Shown here in pieces: positions 351 through 8,547 of a DNA stretch of 60,327 nucleotides; position 1 is the first letter of the stretch; each line of letters opens with the position of its first letter. The notes below the pieces were generated by a model, which saw nothing but the letters and a program-made list of their open reading frames with translations, was not told the origin of the DNA and did not search any database. The position numbers and the translations under genes were made by a program. The stretch is from a virus. The DNA lies in the IMG/VR virus record IMGVR_UViG_3300008113_010061, positions 1-60,327 of that record; one strand, written 5' to 3'.

Positions 351-1277
351 ATGTTTAATTTTTCTGTGTATAATGCTGCGGGTGTGGAAGTTGATCGCCA
401 CAGCATCAACGATGAATTGACCTATGTCGATGGTCGTGTACATCGAGGCAAGAATTGCTACTACAAGGGTGTGGGTGTGCCTTATACGCAGCATACCCTG
501 GATCGATCTGCAATTCCAGATCTCACCGAGTATGAAGTATTGTGCGACTCCAATCTGATCTACATAGGTCCGGTGGTGAGCAAACGATGCTTTGTTGGAA
601 AAACCGGAGTATTTCAGGAACTCTATCAACCCTTCTATCCAGACTTCATTGGTAGCTGCAGCATCAAAGAAGGGCTCATAGTAATAAATTCACTGACCTT
701 TGAAAAGTCCTCGGTGGAAGTTTTTGACTGCATAGAATTTGATAAACAAAACCAGCAGCACTACTACATACTGGACTACAACTGTGGCAGACGGCATTAT
801 GCTGTGCATGATGGTAAACCACAGGATCTGCGTGAGCTCGTGGATTTTATGCTGCAAAATAATTGGAATTTTCTCTGGGACAAGCAGGCCATCAAAGACA
901 TAACAGCCGATGGTCGTGTCAGTGATGTGGCAGATCTATTTCAGTCCAATGAACTAAAGCATAAACTAGGTACTGTGTATGCTGTATTGTACAGCCTGGG
1001 CAATTTGTATCCTGAAAAATATCAGGAATTTCTGCGGTACATGGATTTGAAACATGAGAGCAATCTATCCTATGTACTGAATTCCCTGCTGATACTACGA
1101 GACAACAATGTGGACATCACACCATTGTTGCCCACAGGTTCTATGTCAGAGAACTACAAGCATACGGTCAGAGAATTTTTACTGCAGGGCAAGAATTGTG
1201 CACACTGTGCCTGCGATTTGTTTAAACATCAGGGCGATCAGGTTCGAGATAAATATTTGGCCGCACTGGAGTTTTAA
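351..1277 (+). CDS. Hypothetical protein, 308 aa
   Basis: A 308-residue soluble-looking protein with no signal peptide or membrane segment. I recognise no domain. It is rich in aromatic residues (many Tyr and Phe), and a cysteine cluster CAHCAC lies at about residues 283-288 and might bind metal or form disulphides. The second half looks helical. It begins 3 bases after the small upstream gene and ends just before the tmRNA acceptor piece, so the tmRNA may be co-transcribed with it. Base composition matches the surrounding phage genes. Function unknown. Confidence 0.65.
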   Translation: MFNFSVYNAAGVEVDRHSINDELTYVDGRVHRGKNCYYKGVGVPYTQHTLDRSAIPDLTEYEVLCDSNLIYIGPVVSKRCFVGKTGVFQELYQPFYPDFIGSCSIKEGLIVINSLTFEKSSVEVFDCIEFDKQNQQHYYILDYNCGRRHYAVHDGKPQDLRELVDFMLQNNWNFLWDKQAIKDITADGRVSDVADLFQSNELKHKLGTVYAVLYSLGNLYPEKYQEFLRYMDLKHESNLSYVLNSLLILRDNNVDITPLLPTGSMSENYKHTVREFLLQGKNCAHCACDLFKHQGDQVRDKYLAALEF

Positions 1278-1281
1278 GATA

Positions 1282-1600
1282 TTGCTGTATGAAGCAACCT
1301 GAAATGGGTTCTGGACGCGGGTTCGACTCCCGCCTGGTCCACCAGAAGTGTTGTTTAGGGTGGTATGTAGGAGTTTAACAAGACTCCGAGGACTGGAATT
1401 CCCGACCTGTGAACAGCAGGACACTTCTGATGGGCCAGACATGGTTTCGACAGGGTCAGGAGTAGGCGAGTGGACAGCACGGTAGGCGATGACCGTAAAT
1501 CAAGCAAATCTATAAATGCAAATGACGAAAGTTATGCATTAGCCGCCTAAACACGGCTTAGGGTTTCGCCGGGTTTCCTCGTAACAGAATAACCCGGCAA
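1282..1600 (+). ncRNA. ssrA: Circularly permuted (two-piece) tmRNA
   Basis: tmRNA with SmpB frees stalled ribosomes and adds a degradation tag. Here the 3' half is encoded first. The acceptor piece holds a T arm (stem GCGGG 1317-1321 with CCCGC 1329-1333, loop TTCGACT), the 3' acceptor strand CTGGTCC (1334-1340) and ACCA (1341-1344). The coding piece starts with GGGCCAG (1432-1438), which pairs with CTGGTCC over 7 bp. The third pair is G-U, the alanine identity element. The tag frame runs from the resume codon GCA (1518) to TAA (1548-1550) and encodes ANDESYALAA. CCTAA (1546-1550) pairs with TTAGG (1558-1562) around the stop, as in helix 5. TCAGG (1456-1460) can pair with CCTGA (1298-1302) as part of helix 2. 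The segment 1345-1431 should be cut out. Permuted tmRNAs are known in alphaproteobacteria, cyanobacteria, some betaproteobacteria and a few phages. The outer ends are estimates. Confidence 0.93.
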
Positions 1601-1695: not shown

Positions 1696-2718
1696 ATGAA
1701 AAACCTACTTATAGCTTTACTATGCTTCACCGGTGTTGCATCAGCTGCTGAATTTACTGGAGCAGGTGCTACTTTTCCTTTTCCCATCTATGCCAAGTGG
1801 GCCGAAGCCTACAAAGCACAAACTGGCATTGGCCTAAACTATCAAAGCATTGGTTCAGGTGGTGGTATCAAACAAATCAAAGCCAGGACTGTTGACTTTG
1901 GTGCCAGCGACATGCCGCTCAAACAAGAAGAATTGGACAAAGAAGGTCTTGTACAATTCCCAGCCATCATCGGTGGTGTTGTTCCAGTATTCAACCTTGA
2001 TGGCATTGATGCTGGTAAACTCAAATTAACACCCGATGTAATTGCCAACATTCATCTTGGAAAAATTACAAAATGGAATGATCGAGCAATTGTTGATTTG
2101 AATCCCGGCGTCAATTTACCTGCTATTCCCATTGTAGTAATTCATCGTGCCGATGGTTCTGGCACCACATTTATCTGGACAAACTTTCTGGGCAAAGCCA
2201 ATGCTGACTTTCAAAAGACAGTAGGTGAAGGCACAGCAGTTAAATGGCCAGTTGGTGTAGGCGGTAAAGGCAACGAAGGTGTGGCTGTTCAAGTACAAAG
2301 ACTTAAAGGTGCTTTTGGTTACGTCGAATATGCCTATGCCAAGCGTAATAAGATTCCCTATGCAGCTGTGAAAAATCGCGACGGCAACTTTGTACAGCCC
2401 AGCGATGATACATTCAAAGCAGCAGCCGCAAATGCAGATTGGAAAAATGCACCAGGCATGTATTTGTTACTCACATGGCAAACAGGCAAGGATGCTTGGC
2501 CAGCCACAGGTGCAAGTTTCATCCTCATGCATCGTCAACAAGCAGACGCGTTAACCGGTCGCGCAGTTCTAAAATTCTTTGATTGGAGTTACCGCAACGG
2601 CGGTCAAATGTCAACTGAACTAGAATATGTTCATATGCCAGCCGATGTCATCAAACTAGTTCAGGACAATTGGAAACGAGACTTCCGTGGTCCAGACAAC
2701 AACCCAATCTGGAAATAA
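1696..2718 (+). CDS. pstS: PstS, periplasmic phosphate-binding protein
   Basis: PstS binds phosphate in the periplasm and hands it to the PstCAB transporter. The chosen start gives a 340-residue precursor with a signal peptide (MKNLLIALLCF..., cleavage likely after ASA at about residue 17). Typical motifs follow in order: GAGATFPFPIY (22-32), SIGSGGG (51-57), DFGASD (67-72) and RADGSGTT (151-158), which supply the phosphate-binding loops. An in-frame start eight codons upstream would spoil the signal peptide. The gene is followed after 9 bases by a phosphate porin gene. PstS is a well-known auxiliary gene of marine T4-like phages and would raise phosphate uptake during infection; no pstCAB is visible here, so it must use the host transporter. 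Confidence 0.92.
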   Translation: MKNLLIALLCFTGVASAAEFTGAGATFPFPIYAKWAEAYKAQTGIGLNYQSIGSGGGIKQIKARTVDFGASDMPLKQEELDKEGLVQFPAIIGGVVPVFNLDGIDAGKLKLTPDVIANIHLGKITKWNDRAIVDLNPGVNLPAIPIVVIHRADGSGTTFIWTNFLGKANADFQKTVGEGTAVKWPVGVGGKGNEGVAVQVQRLKGAFGYVEYAYAKRNKIPYAAVKNRDGNFVQPSDDTFKAAAANADWKNAPGMYLLLTWQTGKDAWPATGASFILMHRQQADALTGRAVLKFFDWSYRNGGQMSTELEYVHMPADVIKLVQDNWKRDFRGPDNNPIWK

Positions 2719-2727
2719 GGAACAGCC

Positions 2728-4134
2728 ATGAAATTATTTAAAATTTTTGCTATTGTGGCGGCCATGGTAGCAACAACCCCAGCGTTGGCCGATGAGTATA
2801 AAGATACACTGAATATTCTCAGAGAGAAGAATGTAATCACTCAACAAGAATATAATGACAAACTCAAGGCCTATGAAGATAGAGAAGAAAATAAAAAGTT
2901 TGCAGAGCAAAGAATCGACAAAGATGTTAGCGATTCAGTCAAATATAGACAAGCAAGAGCAAACGATGGTTCAGTCACAGAAAATGGACTTGGACTCAAA
3001 TCGAAAGATGGGAACAATACAGCACAGTTTACGGGTAGAATTCACATGGACTATCGACACTACACACCAGATTATGGTGTCGGTCAAACCACGGATTCGT
3101 ATCAGAACTTAGCAGAAGTTCGCCGTGCTAGATTTGGTGTTCGCGGTCAGTTTGCCAAAGACTTTAAGTACCAATTGCTGGCCAATTTCGGTGGAAGCGA
3201 TGGCTTTAGTTCTACGTCAAGCACCGCTGACGAAATGTGGGTTAACTATGCTGCAAATCCAGAGATGCAGTTTCAATTTGGTTTGTTCAAAATGCCGTTC
3301 AGTCTTGAACAGTTGACTAGTTCAAACAATCTTGACTTCATGGAACGCAGTCTCATTGGTCAAAATGATACTGAATTTATTCCTGCCAAAGAAACTGGTT
3401 TTATGCTGCACGGCGTACCAAAACCTGGGTTGACCTATGCAGTGGCAGTCAGCCGAGGCAAGTCAAACAAGAGTGCAGAGTTCGATGGACTTGACTACAT
3501 TGGTCGTATAACCACCAACATTGCCGAGCTCACCGGCAGCAAAGCCTATGTTGCACATCTGGGTGCAGCATACAGCACTGGTGAGATCAAGAGCGGTGTT
3601 GCACCAGCCAGTGGCAGAACAGAATCACGTATGCAGTCTGGTTGGTTTACTGGTACTGCGTTGAGTGGTGCTACTACAAGAACACGCCAAGGATTAGAAG
3701 CAGCTGTTGCATATGATGGCCTTAAAATTCAGGGTGAGCAATTCAATTTCAAATATGATCCTTTGTCTGGCAGCGATCAAGAAATTCGAGGTTATTATGT
3801 TCAGGCACTATATAATCTGACCGGCGAATCACATGCATACAAAGACGGTGTGTTTGGCTGGATCAAACCAAACAATCCCATTGACAAAGGCGGTAAAGGT
3901 GCATGGCAAGTTGGTGTGCGCATGAGCGAGTTTGATGCCAGCGACATCAGCGTAGCCACTGGTAAGTCGAATCGTGCTACTGCCATGACCTATGGCATTA
4001 CCTGGTTCTGCACCGACAATCTGCGATTCATGCTTAACTATGTCGACACCAAATTTGACGCACTAGTAGGCAGTTCCGGCAGTCGTGTAAATGGCGAAAA
4101 AGCCATTATGTTTAGAAGTCAGCTGAGTTTTTGA
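2728..4134 (+). CDS. Phosphate-selective porin, OprP/OprO-like
   Basis: This 468-residue precursor has a clear signal peptide (MKLFKIFAIVAAMVATTPALA). A short charged, probably coiled-coil stretch follows (about 25-75, DTLNILREKNVITQQEYNDK), as in the N-termini of OprP/OprO porins. The rest is a repetitive beta-barrel sequence with GRIHMDYRHY, EVRRARFGVRGQF, QFGLFKMPFS and LDFMERS, all typical of the phosphate-selective porin O/P family. The last residue is Phe (RSQLSF), the sorting signal for outer-membrane barrels. An AAGGA site precedes the ATG and pstS lies 9 bases upstream, so the two form an operon. Together they would carry phosphate across the outer membrane and through the periplasm. 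Whether the channel prefers phosphate or polyphosphate cannot be told. A porin gene in a lytic phage is unusual. Confidence 0.85.
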   Translation: MKLFKIFAIVAAMVATTPALADEYKDTLNILREKNVITQQEYNDKLKAYEDREENKKFAEQRIDKDVSDSVKYRQARANDGSVTENGLGLKSKDGNNTAQFTGRIHMDYRHYTPDYGVGQTTDSYQNLAEVRRARFGVRGQFAKDFKYQLLANFGGSDGFSSTSSTADEMWVNYAANPEMQFQFGLFKMPFSLEQLTSSNNLDFMERSLIGQNDTEFIPAKETGFMLHGVPKPGLTYAVAVSRGKSNKSAEFDGLDYIGRITTNIAELTGSKAYVAHLGAAYSTGEIKSGVAPASGRTESRMQSGWFTGTALSGATTRTRQGLEAAVAYDGLKIQGEQFNFKYDPLSGSDQEIRGYYVQALYNLTGESHAYKDGVFGWIKPNNPIDKGGKGAWQVGVRMSEFDASDISVATGKSNRATAMTYGITWFCTDNLRFMLNYVDTKFDALVGSSGSRVNGEKAIMFRSQLSF

Positions 4135-4163: not shown

Positions 4164-4208
4164 TTCAGGCCCAAACTGTATAGATACTATGCAGGCATTG
4201 GGCCTGAA
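4164..4208 (+). promoter_or_regulatory. Long hairpin in the leader of pqqA
   Basis: TTCAGGCCCAA (4164-4174) pairs perfectly with TTGGGCCTGAA (4198-4208). Inside it, CTGTATAG (4176-4183) pairs with CTATGCAG (4187-4194) apart from one G-U, over an ATA loop. It stands 6 bases before the pqqA Shine-Dalgarno site. No U-run follows, so it is not a normal terminator; it may stabilise the short mRNA or stop decay coming from the porin message. Confidence 0.6.
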
Positions 4209-4225
4209 CAACCTAGGAGAAAACT

Positions 4226-4300
4226 ATGAAGTGGACCACACCCGCAGCTCAAGATATGCGTTTTGGCTTTGAAATCACCATGTATATCGCAAATCGCTAA
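4226..4300 (+). CDS. pqqA: PqqA-like precursor peptide of PQQ
   Basis: This 24-residue peptide starts MKWTTPAAQ and ends FEITMYIANR. PqqA peptides of proteobacteria are 22-29 residues long, start with M(K)W, and carry a Glu and a Tyr three residues apart; the radical SAM enzyme PqqE joins these two side chains and all atoms of the cofactor pyrroloquinoline quinone come from them. Here they are E16 and Y20 in the strongly conserved context FE-[IV]-T-x-Y. The start has a good Shine-Dalgarno site (AGGAGA, 4215-4220) 5 bases before ATG. A hairpin precedes the gene and a promoter-like TTGACA begins right after its stop. No pqqB-E genes are nearby, so the phage would feed extra substrate to host enzymes. 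The short length is the main reason for caution. Confidence 0.8.
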   Translation: MKWTTPAAQDMRFGFEITMYIANR

Positions 4301-4326
4301 TTGACATTCTAGTATAGATATATAAT
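4301..4326 (+). promoter_or_regulatory. sigma70-like promoter after pqqA
   Basis: A perfect TTGACA (4301-4306) starts directly after the pqqA stop codon. An AT-rich stretch with TATAAT (4321-4326) follows, but at 14 bases the spacing is short; AATAAT at 4324-4329 gives a normal 17. It probably drives the 89-aa gene. Confidence 0.4.
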
Positions 4327-4390
4327 AATAGCAGTTGCTGGACCTGTATAAAACCAGCACACATCACTCACAACACAGAAAGGTACCACC

Positions 4391-4660
4391 ATGTCAAATC
4401 TGACACCGTTCGAGATTCGCCTTGAACTTCTAAAAATGGCGAAGGAAATGCTTACCGAAGAGTATTATGGTAAGCGTGATCAAATTAGTCAAGACTGGCA
4501 AGTCAAGGTAGAGTCCGCTAAACTTCACGGACAACAAATACCTGAACACCCAGCACTTCCGCCCTACCCCACAGAAAACGATGTCATTGCCAAGGCACAG
4601 TCCTTGAATGGTTTTGTTTCTAACACACCCTCAGATAAAGTAAGCAAAAAATCTGCCTGA
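4391..4660 (+). CDS. Conserved small protein of T4-like phages, 89 aa
   Basis: The protein starts MSNLTPFEIRLELLKMAKEM and continues with LTEEYYGKRDQ. Small proteins with this N-terminal pattern (LTPFEIRLELLKMA) recur in marine T4-like phages, but their function is unknown to me. The N-terminal 35 residues look like an amphipathic helix; the middle is Pro-rich (PEHPALPPYPTEND) and the end is Lys/Ser-rich. A GAAAGG Shine-Dalgarno site lies just upstream. It has its own promoter-like sequence and a hairpin terminator after it, so it may be a single-gene transcription unit. Confidence 0.75.
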   Translation: MSNLTPFEIRLELLKMAKEMLTEEYYGKRDQISQDWQVKVESAKLHGQQIPEHPALPPYPTENDVIAKAQSLNGFVSNTPSDKVSKKSA

Positions 4661-4670
4661 TTGGGGGAAC

Positions 4671-4693
4671 GGTACGCTTCGGCGTACCTTCTT
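4671..4693 (+). terminator. UUCG hairpin terminator
   Basis: GGTACGC (4671-4677), tetraloop TTCG, GCGTACC (4682-4688), then TTCTT. The perfect 7-bp stem with the very stable UUCG loop and a T-rich tail indicates a rho-independent terminator after the 89-aa gene. Confidence 0.65.
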
Positions 4694-4707
4694 AACAAGG
4701 AGAACTC

Positions 4708-5265
4708 ATGCTGAACAGACACATTGTTCGACGTTTTTTAGTTAGTGCCACGTTATTTTCCGTATTTGTAGCCGGCATCAATACACTGTATCAAACTCAG
4801 GCGCAGGCTCGCATGGCCCAGGAAATCCAAAGCCAACGCATTGCTGCCGAGCGCACCAAAAAGAAATTGGTAGAAGCCAAACTCAATCGCGAAATTACCT
4901 GCATGGCTCGCAACATCTATTTTGAAAGTGCCAGCGAGCCCATCAAGGGCAAGATTGCCGTGGCTCAGGTCACCATGAACAGAGTCAACAGCGGTCAATT
5001 TCCTGCATCGGTCTGCGGTGTTGTACACCAAAAGACTCACTACGAAGGTTTGACTGTATGTCAGTTCAGCTGGGTCTGTGAAGGCAATTTGAAGATTCGC
5101 GCACCGCATCTCTATGAAGAAAGTCTGCGCGTAGCTCGTCGCGTCATGCTGGATGGTGTGCGTCTACCAGAACTGCAGGGTGCCAAATACTTCCATGCTA
5201 CCTATGTACAGCCTGGTTGGAATAAACAACCCAAGGCTCGCATTGGTAACCATATTTTCTATTGA
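4708..5265 (+). CDS. Cell wall hydrolase, SleB family (probable endolysin)
   Basis: SleB-type hydrolases (Hydrolase_2 family) cut peptidoglycan as lytic transglycosylases. In this 185-residue protein the catalytic domain spans about 63-185 and shows the family signatures MARNIYFESASEP (catalytic Glu region), IAVAQVTMNRV, FPASVCGVVHQK, CQFSWVCEG, and a final IGNHIFY. Residues 9-27 are hydrophobic (FLVSATLFSVFVAGI), so it is either a signal-anchor (SAR-type) endolysin that needs no holin pore or a periplasmic lytic enzyme; a helical linker follows (30-60). Start: ATG with AAGGAG 7 bases upstream. A strong promoter overlaps its stop codon. The three-helix holin on the other strand could be its partner in lysis; that is inference. 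Confidence 0.85.
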   Translation: MLNRHIVRRFLVSATLFSVFVAGINTLYQTQAQARMAQEIQSQRIAAERTKKKLVEAKLNREITCMARNIYFESASEPIKGKIAVAQVTMNRVNSGQFPASVCGVVHQKTHYEGLTVCQFSWVCEGNLKIRAPHLYEESLRVARRVMLDGVRLPELQGAKYFHATYVQPGWNKQPKARIGNHIFY

Positions 5266-5290
5266 CAGCTTGTAAAACTTGCCTTATACT
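5262..5290 (+). promoter_or_regulatory. Strong sigma70 promoter
   Basis: TTGACA (5262-5267), 17-base spacer, TATACT (5285-5290). Both boxes fit the host consensus (six of six, five of six) with ideal spacing. The -35 box overlaps the stop codon of the hydrolase gene. It would transcribe the glycosyltransferase-like gene, gp33, gp59 and gp32 early, using unmodified host polymerase. Confidence 0.7.
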
Positions 5291-5354
5291 GATATATAAC
5301 AGTGCAGTGAATGTTGAACTGTATTATTTTAACTGAAACGGAGAATGATTCAAT

Positions 5355-6287
5355 ATGAGTACTAAACTCAAGCCGCCTGTGAAGGCGCCCAGCAAAGTCA
5401 ATCCCCTGTTTGTCAACAAACAGGCCGAAGCGCCCAGACAGAAATCGGTGTTTATTGCTACTCCGATGTTCGGTGGTCAGTGCAACTACATGTACATGAT
5501 CAGCCTGATCAATCTGCTGACCAAGCTAAGTCAGGCTGGCATACCCACCATGTTCGAAGTCGCAGCCAATGAAAGTTTAATTACCAAGGCTCGCAACATC
5601 CTGGTTGAAGGCTTCTTAAAAAGTCAGGCCACGCATTTACTGTTCATCGATGCCGATCTGGGCTTTGATGCCGATGATGTGATTCGCATGATTCAAGCCG
5701 ACAAGGACATCATTGGTGGACAGTATGCCAAGAAGAAAATGAACTGGGATGCTGTTAAACATGTTGTCAGCAGTCGTCCTGACATTCCACCACATGCCAT
5801 CAATGCTGTGATTGCCGAATCCACCTTCAAGCCTGTGGGTGATAGTTTAACCTTTAACATCAATGAACCAGTAGAAGTAGAAAGCATTGCCACTGGTATG
5901 ATGTTGGTTAACCGTCGAGTGTTTACTGAGATGGCGGCACGCATGCCTGATATCCGCATCATCAGCGGCGGTTCAGAAACCATGGATCCAGCCACCATGA
6001 CACGTCGAGCCGATGCTCCGCGCGAAGCTCATGCCTATTTTGATGTCAGCATCGATGAAGCCACGCGTGCCTATACCAGCGAAGACTTTACCTTCTGCAA
6101 ACGCTGGCGACAACTAGGCGGCCAGATTTTCTTGGCACCCTGGACTCGCACAGTACACGTTGGCACCTATGAGTATGTCTGCGATCTCATGGCCACAGCG
6201 CAGTGGATGCAGCCACAGCAACCCCCGCCACCTCCGCAGACTTCGCCTCTTTTTAGCGGAACTGTGCCTCAGGCCAGGGCAGCGTAA
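5355..6287 (+). CDS. Glycosyltransferase-like protein (GT-A fold)
   Basis: This 310-residue protein begins with a basic, disordered stretch. A Rossmann-type start follows (VFIATPMFGGQ, about 32-42), then a helix with LITKARNILVEGFL and the strand-loop LLFIDADLGF (about 95-104). This DxD-like motif would bind the metal and nucleotide-sugar phosphates in GT-A enzymes. SEDFTFCKRWRQLGG (about 237-251) resembles the late ED motif of such enzymes. The C-terminus is Pro-rich (QQPPPPPQ) and looks disordered. Proteins of this kind are common in T4-like environmental phages and may modify DNA, the host surface or virion proteins; the acceptor cannot be told. It follows a strong promoter after about 65 bases and its stop overlaps the next start (TAATG). 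Confidence 0.65.
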   Translation: MSTKLKPPVKAPSKVNPLFVNKQAEAPRQKSVFIATPMFGGQCNYMYMISLINLLTKLSQAGIPTMFEVAANESLITKARNILVEGFLKSQATHLLFIDADLGFDADDVIRMIQADKDIIGGQYAKKKMNWDAVKHVVSSRPDIPPHAINAVIAESTFKPVGDSLTFNINEPVEVESIATGMMLVNRRVFTEMAARMPDIRIISGGSETMDPATMTRRADAPREAHAYFDVSIDEATRAYTSEDFTFCKRWRQLGGQIFLAPWTRTVHVGTYEYVCDLMATAQWMQPQQPPPPPQTSPLFSGTVPQARAA

Positions 6288-6511
6288 TGGGTGGCATCAA
6301 CGATAGAGTTCAGAGTCAGAGTGCCTTGGGTCTGGTGTTGACTGGACCCAATGGCGAAGTCAAGGTTAATAAAAATGTGGATGCACAGGGCGAAAATCTA
6401 ACCAATGAATTTGTTATCACCAAACAATTCAACAGGTGCTGGCTCAGAGTCGTCTGGATCGTATCAGCAGCATGGATACCATCATCAATTACTGCACTGA
6501 AAAAGACATAG
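6287..6511 (+). CDS. gp33: gp33-like late transcription coactivator, N-terminal part (frame broken)
   Basis: In T4, gp33 links RNA polymerase to the sliding clamp and is essential for late transcription. Residues 1-48, ending with TNEFVITKQFN, correspond to the region before the conserved core of gp33. From about 6430 this frame turns into an unrelated tail (RCWLRVVWIV...) while the conserved core continues in the frame one base back, described in the next entry. A -1 change near 6430-6433 would join them into about 109 residues, close to the 112 of T4 gp33. No canonical slippery heptamer is visible, so a single-base deletion in the phage or the assembly is as likely as recoding. The start overlaps the previous stop (TAATG). 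Confidence 0.5.
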   Translation: MGGINDRVQSQSALGLVLTGPNGEVKVNKNVDAQGENLTNEFVITKQFNRCWLRVVWIVSAAWIPSSITALKKT

Positions 6512-6618
6512 ACATTGAAGCCGTGGCTCCCCTGATCAATCCAGTACTCAAAGAACGTATTCGTTTTGAAGCCGAAGAAGCCAACCTTATGAAACGCAGC
6601 GCCCGACTACCACTATGA
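6436..6618 (+). CDS. gp33: gp33-like late transcription coactivator, C-terminal part
   Basis: Residues from ISSMDTIINYC through EAVAPLINPVLKERI to EEANLMKRS align well, segment by segment, with the conserved core of T4 gp33 (MSYLEATTAFL, FAKFIPSGIIEKI, DENLLRPS). The C-terminus RLPL is hydrophobic, as expected for the sliding-clamp-binding end. Only a GTG start without a Shine-Dalgarno site is available in this frame, so the part is probably expressed together with the upstream half. The stop overlaps the gp59 start (ATGA). gene 33 beside gene 59 and near gene 32 matches the T4 order, which supports the call. Confidence 0.6.
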   Translation: MLAQSRLDRISSMDTIINYCTEKDIDIEAVAPLINPVLKERIRFEAEEANLMKRSARLPL

Positions 6619-7214
6619 ACATGACTGAGTTTGAAGCCTACAAGATGTATTTGGCTTTGCGTGCACATTTCCAGACCGACGAATATGATGTGATCAAACA
6701 ACGAGGACGAATCCGAGCCAGCCACAAGAGTTTTGTTGGCTCGGGCAAATCCTTTCAGTTCCTGCAGTTAACCAAGACATATCAGGATGCCGAGATCTGT
6801 GACTTCATGGTGGCTAATTTTACTGCGGGCGATCGCTGGGGCGGTGTGTTCAATGCCGATGCAGCTCGTCAGTATCAGAGCTGGAAACGCAGAGTAGAAA
6901 GTCTGAGATACATATTCACACAGGACCTAGACACACTAACCAATCTGATGGCCGATGAAGGCGCGGATCTGATTAGTTATGCAGCTGGTCAGCATCCACT
7001 GATACTGCGAGCCTACTTTGGCAATCATATCTGTCTAGAGACTGTGGTGATACTGGATGTATTGTTGAACTTCTGCAACGACTATGATCAGACCATGCAG
7101 CGTGTATTCATGTGGCCTGAAACCAGTCGCCTGATACGTAAATATCGACCTTTTTTAAAATTTGACACCGATGCCTTCAGAAAAATCTATGAAGAAAAAT
7201 TCAGACCAGGATGA
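6615..7214 (+). CDS. gp59: gp59 helicase loader
   Basis: gp59 loads the gp41 helicase onto gp32-coated forked DNA and coordinates replication with recombination. The 199-residue length compares with 217 in T4. The N-terminus shows the family pattern AYKMYLALRAHF...YDVIKQRGRIRAS, and FQFLQLTKTYQDAEICDFMVANF, NADAARQYQSWKRRVESLRYIF and LETVVILDVLLNFCNDYD follow the T4 protein. The fold is all-helical. Start: ATG overlapping the gp33 stop; a second ATG two codons later is an alternative. Position between gp33 and gp32 is as in T4 and cyanophages. The 3' end overlaps the next gene by 26 bases. Confidence 0.88.
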   Translation: MNMTEFEAYKMYLALRAHFQTDEYDVIKQRGRIRASHKSFVGSGKSFQFLQLTKTYQDAEICDFMVANFTAGDRWGGVFNADAARQYQSWKRRVESLRYIFTQDLDTLTNLMADEGADLISYAAGQHPLILRAYFGNHICLETVVILDVLLNFCNDYDQTMQRVFMWPETSRLIRKYRPFLKFDTDAFRKIYEEKFRPG

Positions 7215-7437
7215 GTTGTCTCTGGATGATCGTTTAGAAAGACTTGAAGTATCATTTTTAAGATTAGACGCCGATATTAATAACCTGGCCATGATAGTGA
7301 ATGAGCTCAATGAACGGTTGCGCAAGACTCAGGAATTTAGTGTTAAAATTGGTCATGCACAGAACCGCATACACGAGTACATTTCACACTGGCCTTTTGT
7401 CAGAGTAGTCAAGGACCATGGGCAAGACTTTTCGTAA
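7189..7437 (+). CDS. Small coiled-coil protein, 82 aa
   Basis: An acidic and helical protein with heptad spacing (LDDRLERLEVSFLRLDADINNLAMIVNEL is written here only as its pattern: leucines and isoleucines every 3-4 residues over about residues 10-45), so a coiled coil is likely. I place the start at the ATG beginning MKKNSDQDEL, inside the end of gp59; an upstream ATG at 7171 is possible. It ends within the start of the following gene. No family recognised. Its place between genes 59 and 32 suggests a replication-related role, but nothing proves it. Confidence 0.6.
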   Translation: MKKNSDQDELSLDDRLERLEVSFLRLDADINNLAMIVNELNERLRKTQEFSVKIGHAQNRIHEYISHWPFVRVVKDHGQDFS

Positions 7438-7624
7438 CGTCAGAGATGAGAGCCGTAAAGGTATTAAAAATAAAACGGCAACAAGGCTAGAAAAAGCCAT
7501 TGAAAAATACAAGAAACATATATATAATGACGCATCCCCAGTAAATGAGGATGCCGATGATGATGTGTTTGATGACAACATTGATGATGAATCCAACCAT
7601 ACTCGGTTTATACAACGCAAATAA
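7418..7624 (+). CDS. Small hypothetical protein, 68 aa
   Basis: The first half is basic (MGKTFRNVRDESRKGIKNKTATRLEKAIEK in composition: many Lys and Arg) and the second half very acidic (NEDADDDVFDDNIDDES). Such a charge split suggests binding to nucleic acid or to a basic partner, possibly in connection with gp32 just downstream. It overlaps the preceding gene by 20 bases and ends 11 bases before gp32. No family recognised. Confidence 0.6.
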   Translation: MGKTFRNVRDESRKGIKNKTATRLEKAIEKYKKHIYNDASPVNEDADDDVFDDNIDDESNHTRFIQRK

Positions 7625-7635
7625 GGAGCATACAA

Positions 7636-8547
7636 ATGGCATTTAATAGTCTATCCGATCTTAGAAAATCCCGCGGTGGTTTTGACACCCTGATGAAGGA
7701 AGTGGACAAAATCAGTCAACCCGCAGGTGGCGAACGCAAAGAAGATGATCGCTTCTGGCAACCCACAGTCGACAAGGCTGGCAACGGTTATGCTGTCGTT
7801 CGTTTCCTACCTCCTCCCCGTGGTGAAGAACTTCCTTGGGTACGTATCTGGAATCATGGCTTTCAAGGTCCTACTGGCAAGTGGTACATTGAGAATAGCC
7901 TGACCACCATAGGCAAACCTGACCCTGTCAGCGAACTCAACAATGAGCTTTGGAACAGTGGCAGCGAAGCCAACAAGGAAATCGCCCGCAAGCAGAAACG
8001 CCGTCTGAGCTATGTCTGCAACGTCTATGTGGTGTCTGATCCATCTAATCCTAGCAACGAAGGCAAGGTCAAACTGTTCAAGTTTGGCAAAAAGATCTTT
8101 GATAAAATCAAGGATGTAATGCAGCCTCAGTTCCAGGATGAAGAGCCGCTGAATCCTTTTGACTTTTGGAAGGGTGCAGACTTTAAGATCAAGATCCGCA
8201 ATGTCGAGGGTTATCGTAACTATGACAAGTCTGAGTTCGCCAGTGCAGCTGCACTGAGTGACGATGATGCTGAAATTGAGAAGATCTGGTCAGCGGAACA
8301 CAGCCTGTCTGACTTCATGGATGAGCGTCATTTCAAGAGCTATGAAGAACTCAAGCGTAAACTGGAGCAGGTACTGAATGCCGCAGGTGCACCAGCAGTG
8401 CGTGCTGAGAGTGCTGATCTAGATATGCCGCGTGCAGCTGCTAAACCAGCTGCCGCTGTGGCTAAACCAGCACCCAAGGCTGAAGCCGATTTTGATGAGG
8501 ATGATGAAAGTCTAAGCTACTTTGCCAAGTTAGCAGCCGACGATTGA
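7636..8547 (+). CDS. gp32: gp32 single-stranded DNA-binding protein
   Basis: gp32 coats single-stranded DNA in replication, recombination and repair. The 303-residue length matches T4 (301). The N-terminus has the cooperativity region with LRKSRGG; the OB-fold core includes VVRFLPPPRGEELPWVRIWNHGF and GKWYIENSL. The C-terminus has a flexible Ala/Pro linker (about 255-283) and an acidic tail (DFDEDDESLSYF) that recruits partner proteins. T4 gp32 binds zinc with one His and three Cys after this point. The NHGF histidine is kept, but no Cys pair follows IENSL, so the zinc site is lost, as in cyanophage relatives. Start: ATG after AAGGAG. The 3' end overlaps the convergent minus-strand gene by 18 bases. 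Confidence 0.93.
   Translation: MAFNSLSDLRKSRGGFDTLMKEVDKISQPAGGERKEDDRFWQPTVDKAGNGYAVVRFLPPPRGEELPWVRIWNHGFQGPTGKWYIENSLTTIGKPDPVSELNNELWNSGSEANKEIARKQKRRLSYVCNVYVVSDPSNPSNEGKVKLFKFGKKIFDKIKDVMQPQFQDEEPLNPFDFWKGADFKIKIRNVEGYRNYDKSEFASAAALSDDDAEIEKIWSAEHSLSDFMDERHFKSYEELKRKLEQVLNAAGAPAVRAESADLDMPRAAAKPAAAVAKPAPKAEADFDEDDESLSYFAKLAADD

Follow-up and report, generated by a model that had tools for sequence, protein, structure and literature searches.

A circularly permuted tmRNA gene of a T4-like aquatic phage contains an intervening sequence (IVS) that, on comparison of many related genes, is well supported as a structured module exchanged among phage tmRNA genes independently of the mature RNA. 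We consider it probable that the locus encodes an intact beta-type two-piece tmRNA with an exchangeable structured IVS, which is processed and perhaps selected.

A permuted tmRNA gene in a T4-like phage

The window analysed here is the whole of IMG/VR record IMGVR_UViG_3300008113_010061 (60,327 bases), which is classed as a virus. Judged by its gene content, the fragment is part of a T4-like myovirus genome, with gp32, gp59, tail sheath, tube, portal, large terminase, head protease and baseplate genes. A second IMG/VR contig with the tmRNA gene, 3300008110_000442, is 99.7 % identical to the window over 4.5 kb.

ARAGORN called a permuted tmRNA at positions 1283 to ~1600 on the plus strand, confirming the gene that a preliminary description had placed at 1282–1600, and returned the same tag, ANDESYALAA. 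A covariance search, which that description had proposed as a check, passed the cut-offs by a wide margin: the gene scored 145 bits with Rfam model RF01850 (beta_tmRNA; E 2e-44, gathering cut-off 84) and 139.9 bits with RF04321 (tmRNA_permuted; cut-off 47). The alpha_tmRNA model gave only 61.9 bits against 145 for the beta model, identifying the gene as beta type; the cyano model was not scored separately, but cmscan retains the best-scoring model of a clan. The G-U third acceptor pair, T loop, resume codon and helix around the tag stop, all named earlier, can be read directly, and the cuts predicted near 1344 and 1432 coincide with the CCA end and the acceptor 5′ start in the sequence, in the absence of end mapping. 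As far as its sequence can tell, the locus is a circularly permuted, betaproteobacterial-type tmRNA gene with all sequence features intact, as follows.

1283–1344, +: acceptor piece, 5′ end approximate (Rfam RF04321/RF01850 alignments, ARAGORN, direct reading)
1284–1288 with 1474–1478, +: inter-piece helix GCTGT/ACAGC (direct reading)
1317–1333, +: T arm GCGGG-TTCGACT-CCCGC (direct reading)
1334–1340, +: acceptor 3′ strand CTGGTCC (direct reading)
1341 and 1342–1344, +: A73, then the encoded CCA (direct reading)
1345–1431, +: IVS of 87 nt between CCA and GGG
1432–1600, +: coding (mRNA-like) piece, 3′ end approximate (ARAGORN, Rfam)
1432–1438, +: acceptor 5′ strand GGGCCAG, start of the coding piece (direct reading)
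1518, +: resume codon GCA, with UAAAU just before it (direct reading)
1518–1547, +: tag frame ANDESYALAA, stop TAA at 1548–1550 (ARAGORN, direct reading)
Around the tag stop, +: helix AGCCG/CGGCT (direct reading)
1568–1607, +: 3′ hairpin GCCGGGTT/AACCCGGC (1568–1598) plus T-run (direct reading, fold)

The acceptor stem forms 7/7 pairs across the IVS, including the alanine identity pair G3.U70 (1434/1338). The 3′ hairpin and T-run are probably the last helix of the coding piece and a terminator; the loop of 15 exceeds what the terminator scan accepts. Processing into two pieces is inferred from the permuted gene order, as no end-mapping data are available.

In gene order, G3.U70 acceptor stem, T loop, TTCGAC motif, resume codon GCA, ANDE...ALAA tag and a hairpin IVS with a 3′ UGAU, the gene resembles the betaproteobacterial two-piece tmRNA (RF01850/RF04321). 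It differs in being phage-borne, in the length of its IVS (87 nt against a median of 32 in the cellular genes compared) and in sharing that IVS with diverged tmRNAs.

The IVS is a branched hairpin on a conserved basal helix

The preliminary description did not mention the unusual IVS. Positions 1345–1431 are predicted to form a branched hairpin (−25.4 kcal/mol), in which a basal helix (1345–1351/1421–1427) extends the acceptor stem, with ACCA facing the 3′ UGAU, and carries the inner branched hairpins. Across 83 distinct viral genes the basal helix is 97 % paired in register, against 29–61 % when the register is shifted, and at some positions all six standard pair types occur; a formal count on 27 of these genes gave 92 % paired and a covariation of 0.569, compared with 0.127 for shuffled rows (0/500). 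A C.A mismatch adjoins the discriminator base in 81 of the 83 genes. Since bacterial permuted genes have comparable helices and UGAU-like ends, the basal helix appears to be a general feature of permuted tmRNA precursors.

Once the basal helix is removed, the IVS cores fold on average only slightly more stably than shuffled sequences (mean z −0.6). A ribozyme or riboswitch identity was ruled out, no Rfam match being found at E below 5; the search of 1345–1431 for Rfam riboswitches, ribozymes or sRNAs returned a single match at chance level (E 5.3). The IVS is longer in phages, with a median of 72 nt versus 28.5 in alphaproteobacteria and 32 in beta cells (p 5e-7).

Identical IVSs occupy diverged tmRNA genes

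The core of the window IVS was searched in IMG/VR as a bare DNA pattern, without tmRNA features, and matched 22 contigs besides the window, one of them (L126) a near-identical twin. ARAGORN finds a permuted tmRNA around the module in 21 of the 22; in L321, where the flank is lost at the contig end, the sequence begins with ACCA and runs into a tmRNA coding piece. In all copies the 87-nt module spans exactly CCA to GGG, with at least 93 % identity, while the recipient tmRNAs differ in acceptor stems, T arms and tags (ANDESYALAA, ANEEVYALAA, ANEDRFALAA, ANDERYALAA, ANDAFYGEERLAA, ANDNSYRMAA and others). Across 11 different backgrounds, mean identity is 0.78 for the mature RNA (minimum 0.65) and 0.98 for the IVS; the upstream 300 bases are 0.57–0.63 identical, compared with 0.93–1.00 for the IVS. 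Seven positions vary within the family and the fold is intact at each. Two pairs change from G-C to A-U on both sides, one via G.U, and one U.G becomes U-A, but with two pairs, seven distinct sequences and 23/500 shuffles the evidence for compensatory change is suggestive, not conclusive.

The converse arrangement, different IVSs in near-identical surroundings, was also observed. L221 and L226 encode the same tag and have flanks 93.5–98.6 % identical over 3 kb, yet their IVSs (134 and 67 nt) are only 0.39 identical; for L112 and L103 the flanks agree at 95–97.5 % and the IVSs at 0.34. L021 and L327 share a tag and a near-identical mature RNA, one with a 59-nt IVS family and the other with the window module, and the difference is limited to the segment between CCA and GGG, which is the IVS. 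Between L083 and L075, the exchanged tract includes the T arm and acceptor as well as the IVS.

Among 151 phage genes we distinguished 75 IVS families at 80 % identity, 18 of which occur in at least two diverged tmRNAs; L093 and L134 were mis-registered and left out of the extracted gene set. At mature identities of at least 0.7, mature and IVS identity have a rank correlation of 0.10 in phages and 0.43 in alphaproteobacteria. Beta cells likewise show no correlation in this range (rho 0.09, n 32, from only 12 cells), and this small sample indicates fast IVS change without sharing. Pairs below 0.95 mature identity with an IVS identity of at least 0.8 numbered 50 in phages and 0 in cells, and no IVS exchange was seen among 33 to 36 cellular genes. 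Assembly chimeras were rejected as the cause of the swaps: the acceptor strands agree across the IVS in every gene counted, and different metagenomes yielded several of the identical IVSs. The presence of one IVS in diverged genes proves exchange but not function; frequent recombination in the conserved tmRNA flanks could shuffle neutral spacers.

Core-only searches with two further families bore out this pattern and gave 15 contigs for family 3, all in tmRNAs, and nine for family 2. In two of the nine (L333 and L334), the family 2 module, with 12-pair arms of its own, immediately follows the CCA of a tRNA-Lys; no tmRNA was matched in the L333 record. Two other families have members located between the CCA of an upstream tRNA and the tmRNA 5′ end (L041 and L011/L069). 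Inverted repeats with an 8-pair helix directly after the CCA of tRNAs were found at 4.1 % in these phages, against 0.7 % in shuffled sequence, an enrichment partly due to neighbouring tRNA acceptor stems. Four IVSs (L112, L221, L090 and L100) contain a small ORF with a Shine–Dalgarno sequence, starting 11–14 bases into the IVS; the L221 peptide has CxC and CCxxC motifs.

Cargo in the IVS has been reported in isolated cases, one permuted tmRNA with an intact tRNA-Ala and another with a repetitive element (PMC11915505). Unlike these, the phage slot is recurrent and exchangeable. No description of IVS exchange was found in the literature on the ssrA genes of phages Mosig and Melnitz. As far as the literature found can show, the exchangeable IVS module appears to be undescribed; priority is unsure, as key papers on betaproteobacterial two-piece tmRNAs were not covered.

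A syntenic lineage of phage tmRNA genes

That phages carry two-piece tmRNAs was correctly stated in the preliminary description, but not that they are few: of the 133 unique phage tmRNA structures in a 2021 survey, 53 are of this kind, with aquatic phages accounting for 50 (PMC9004378), and one strict sequence pattern retrieved 69 viral contigs with permuted tmRNA genes. Known examples are the pelagimyophage Mosig and the methylophage Melnitz, which the window gene resembles as a two-piece tmRNA of a phage with a late transcription accessory gene downstream, inferred in the window from position alone (PMC9004378). In Mosig, the annotated SsrA is followed by this gene, with gp59 further downstream. 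The Melnitz gene is described as alphaproteobacterial in type (PMC9004378), unlike the beta-type gene of the window.

For an unbiased sample, loci were collected with gp32 as anchor, independently of the tmRNA. A tmRNA was present in 18 of 80 such loci, and in 7 of the 21 with at least 7 kb of upstream sequence; all 18 are permuted, on the same strand and upstream of gp59–gp32. This position, which the window shares, is kept in a large group of T4-like phages. The beta model outscored the alpha model in 26/26 records scored with both. G3.U70 is invariant across the 83 distinct viral genes, next to stem positions that take as many as five pair types. Of 84 viral tags, 77 end in AA, the pattern expected if tagged proteins are still degraded.

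SmpB was absent from 24 of the 25 records searched, the window record included, so the host protein is probably used, a dependence that we assume. The single exception is L093, a 105-kb viral record in which SmpB (PF01668, 149 bits) lies ~2 kb from a permuted tmRNA (the two at 290–715 and 2870–3247), with a T4-type RNA ligase nearby; this phage has both trans-translation partners. The isolated Synechococcus phage BUCT-ZZ01 (L001:4802-5220; ON615601.1) has a beta-type permuted tmRNA with the tag ANDETFSMALAA and a 111-nt IVS, unannotated in its record; its host is Synechococcus elongatus.

In Burkholderiales the permuted form is patchy, with 4 of 150 genomes above the RF01850 cut-off. One Burkholderiales genome (G156, contigs C15 and C54) combines a standard tmRNA (230 bits) with a permuted copy, the latter on a contig of 128 kb that may itself be a phage or plasmid. 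With alphaproteobacteria as the root of a 156-column tree, the phage genes look paraphyletic to beta cells, and marine phage genes with ANDN-type tags fall between the alphaproteobacterial and beta-type tmRNAs. These are weakly supported hints that phages may have carried the permuted gene between bacterial classes. A phage origin of the betaproteobacterial permuted ssrA is left unsettled by the uneven support and short alignment, and remains a lead.

Alternative explanations

The sharing of IVSs could reflect nothing more than homologous recombination in the conserved flanks (T loop, acceptor and CCA on one side, GGG...TTCGAC on the other), with the discarded IVS itself being junk. T4-like phages recombine intensely, the flanks beside swapped IVSs are often identical for 30–60 bases per side, and the mature segments of these tmRNAs also look mosaic. 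We nevertheless think a neutral spacer rather unlikely. Family 2 is found after the tRNA-Lys CCA in L333 and L334 without tmRNA flanks; identical IVSs are bordered on either side by acceptor stems that differ, so that exchange tracts often stop only a few bases from CCA and GGG; the fold of the window IVS family survives every substitution; and phage IVSs exceed cellular ones in length. The occurrence of one family both after a tRNA-Lys CCA and as a tmRNA IVS, the cassettes of other families between a tRNA CCA and the tmRNA 5′ end, and the enrichment of post-CCA inverted repeats would also be compatible with mobile, MITE-like hairpins that insert 3′ of the CCA ends of tRNA-like genes, the permuted junction being one such site. 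This seems improbable to us, as no transposase, target duplication or within-genome multicopy amplification was seen and, unlike transposon terminal repeats, the arms vary while the cores are constant.

Shuffled stem-loop cassettes are known in T4-like phages: according to papers that cite the original work (PMC4503421, PMC3950731), PeSLs (Arbiol 2010, Comeau 2014) are promoter-terminator stem-loops between protein genes, tied to modular shuffling of T4-like genomes. The window module shares the stem-loop form and the association with shuffling, but a scan of the IVS and its surroundings found no promoter-like hexamers (0 sites) and, on the plus strand, no terminator T-run, and the module lies inside an RNA gene; measured against the PeSL criteria of an early promoter plus a stem-loop terminator, which it fails, a regulatory cassette of this type is scarcely credible. 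The tmRNA itself might have been captured recently from a present betaproteobacterial host, given that the cellular genes closest to it, from Advenella and two small Burkholderiales genomes, encode the same tag and are 82–88 % identical over ~110–130 bases. However, the window clusters in trees with phage genes L105 and L092 (support 100 in one tree), apart from cells; many diverged phages have a tmRNA at this locus; the tag is encoded in 67 viral contigs; and the beta-type gene of the Synechococcus phage means that the type does not name the host, which together with the spread of the tag among viruses also rules out host assignment from either. Recent capture is thus very unlikely and, going by the tree grouping, shared locus and beta fit, the window gene is a further member of a known tmRNA type.

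A proposed route from precursor to cargo

We return to an intact two-piece tmRNA with an exchangeable IVS. The mechanism proposed here rests on sequence alone; without RNA data, processing and expression are inferred, as is the stability of the IVS after release. The precursor would probably share a transcript with the upstream gene. The basal helix, in which ACCA lies opposite UGAU with a single conserved C.A mismatch, would cover the CCA end and keep the two halves joined. By analogy with established tmRNA biology, RNase P would then cleave before G1432 and 3′ nucleases would free the CCA at 1344; less certainly, the IVS may be set free as a small folded RNA. The mature two-piece RNA would be charged with alanine via G3.U70, work with host SmpB, rescue stalled ribosomes and append a degradable tag, as is likewise established for tmRNA. 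Because any insert with pairing ends would be removed, the slot could tolerate cargo in the form of structured RNAs or small ORFs. Such cargo would be swapped by recombination between co-infecting phages and, in the least certain step, may be under selection rather than neutral.

A wider hypothesis, which we offer only tentatively, is that the post-CCA slot of phage tRNA and permuted tmRNA genes is a dock for diverse exchangeable RNA cassettes released during infection, a new kind of mobile RNA-level cargo in T4-like phages, and that the two-piece tmRNA is kept partly as its carrier. Phage tmRNAs are known but have been treated as curiosities acquired from hosts; here they emerge as a phage gene lineage that is long-lived and syntenic, always permuted in our sample. 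The part of the tmRNA thought to be waste is the part that moves, with its fold kept, and is exchanged much more readily than the rescue RNA. Should the IVS be functional cargo, it would represent a hidden route by which phages could deploy small RNAs or micro-proteins tied to ribosome rescue. This may be one reason why phages keep the permuted form, as it alone offers a slot that tRNA-processing enzymes cut out.

Genes surrounding the tmRNA

Three neighbouring features of the window are listed here.

351–1277, +: upstream ORF of 308 aa, no family match, stopping 5 bases before the tmRNA
4391–4660, +: conserved ORF of 89 aa, downstream of the tmRNA in many relatives (synteny)
6615–8547, +: gp59 helicase loader and gp32 single-strand DNA binding protein, the conserved anchor downstream of the tmRNA

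A scan of 1000–1800 found no sigma-70-like promoter, making co-transcription of the tmRNA with the upstream ORF likely. The 89-aa ORF occupies the same place as the late transcription accessory gene that follows SsrA in phage Mosig. It has no match in PHROG, Pfam or PDB, and we did not assign it as gp33, for which position alone agrees.

Between the tmRNA and the 89-aa gene, the window encodes a PstS and a porin. The region directly 3′ of the tmRNA (1696–4134) contains a phosphate-binding PstS (phrog_5385, PF12849) beside a phosphate-selective porin O/P (PF07396, 168 bits), possibly a phage phosphate-uptake pair. In L105, the counterparts of window 1275–1598 and 4177–7958 are only ~600 bases apart, a gap too short for the pair to lie between them. 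Between the terminator-like tmRNA hairpin and PstS, positions 1607–1614 (TATAAATA) match the T4-type late promoter consensus.
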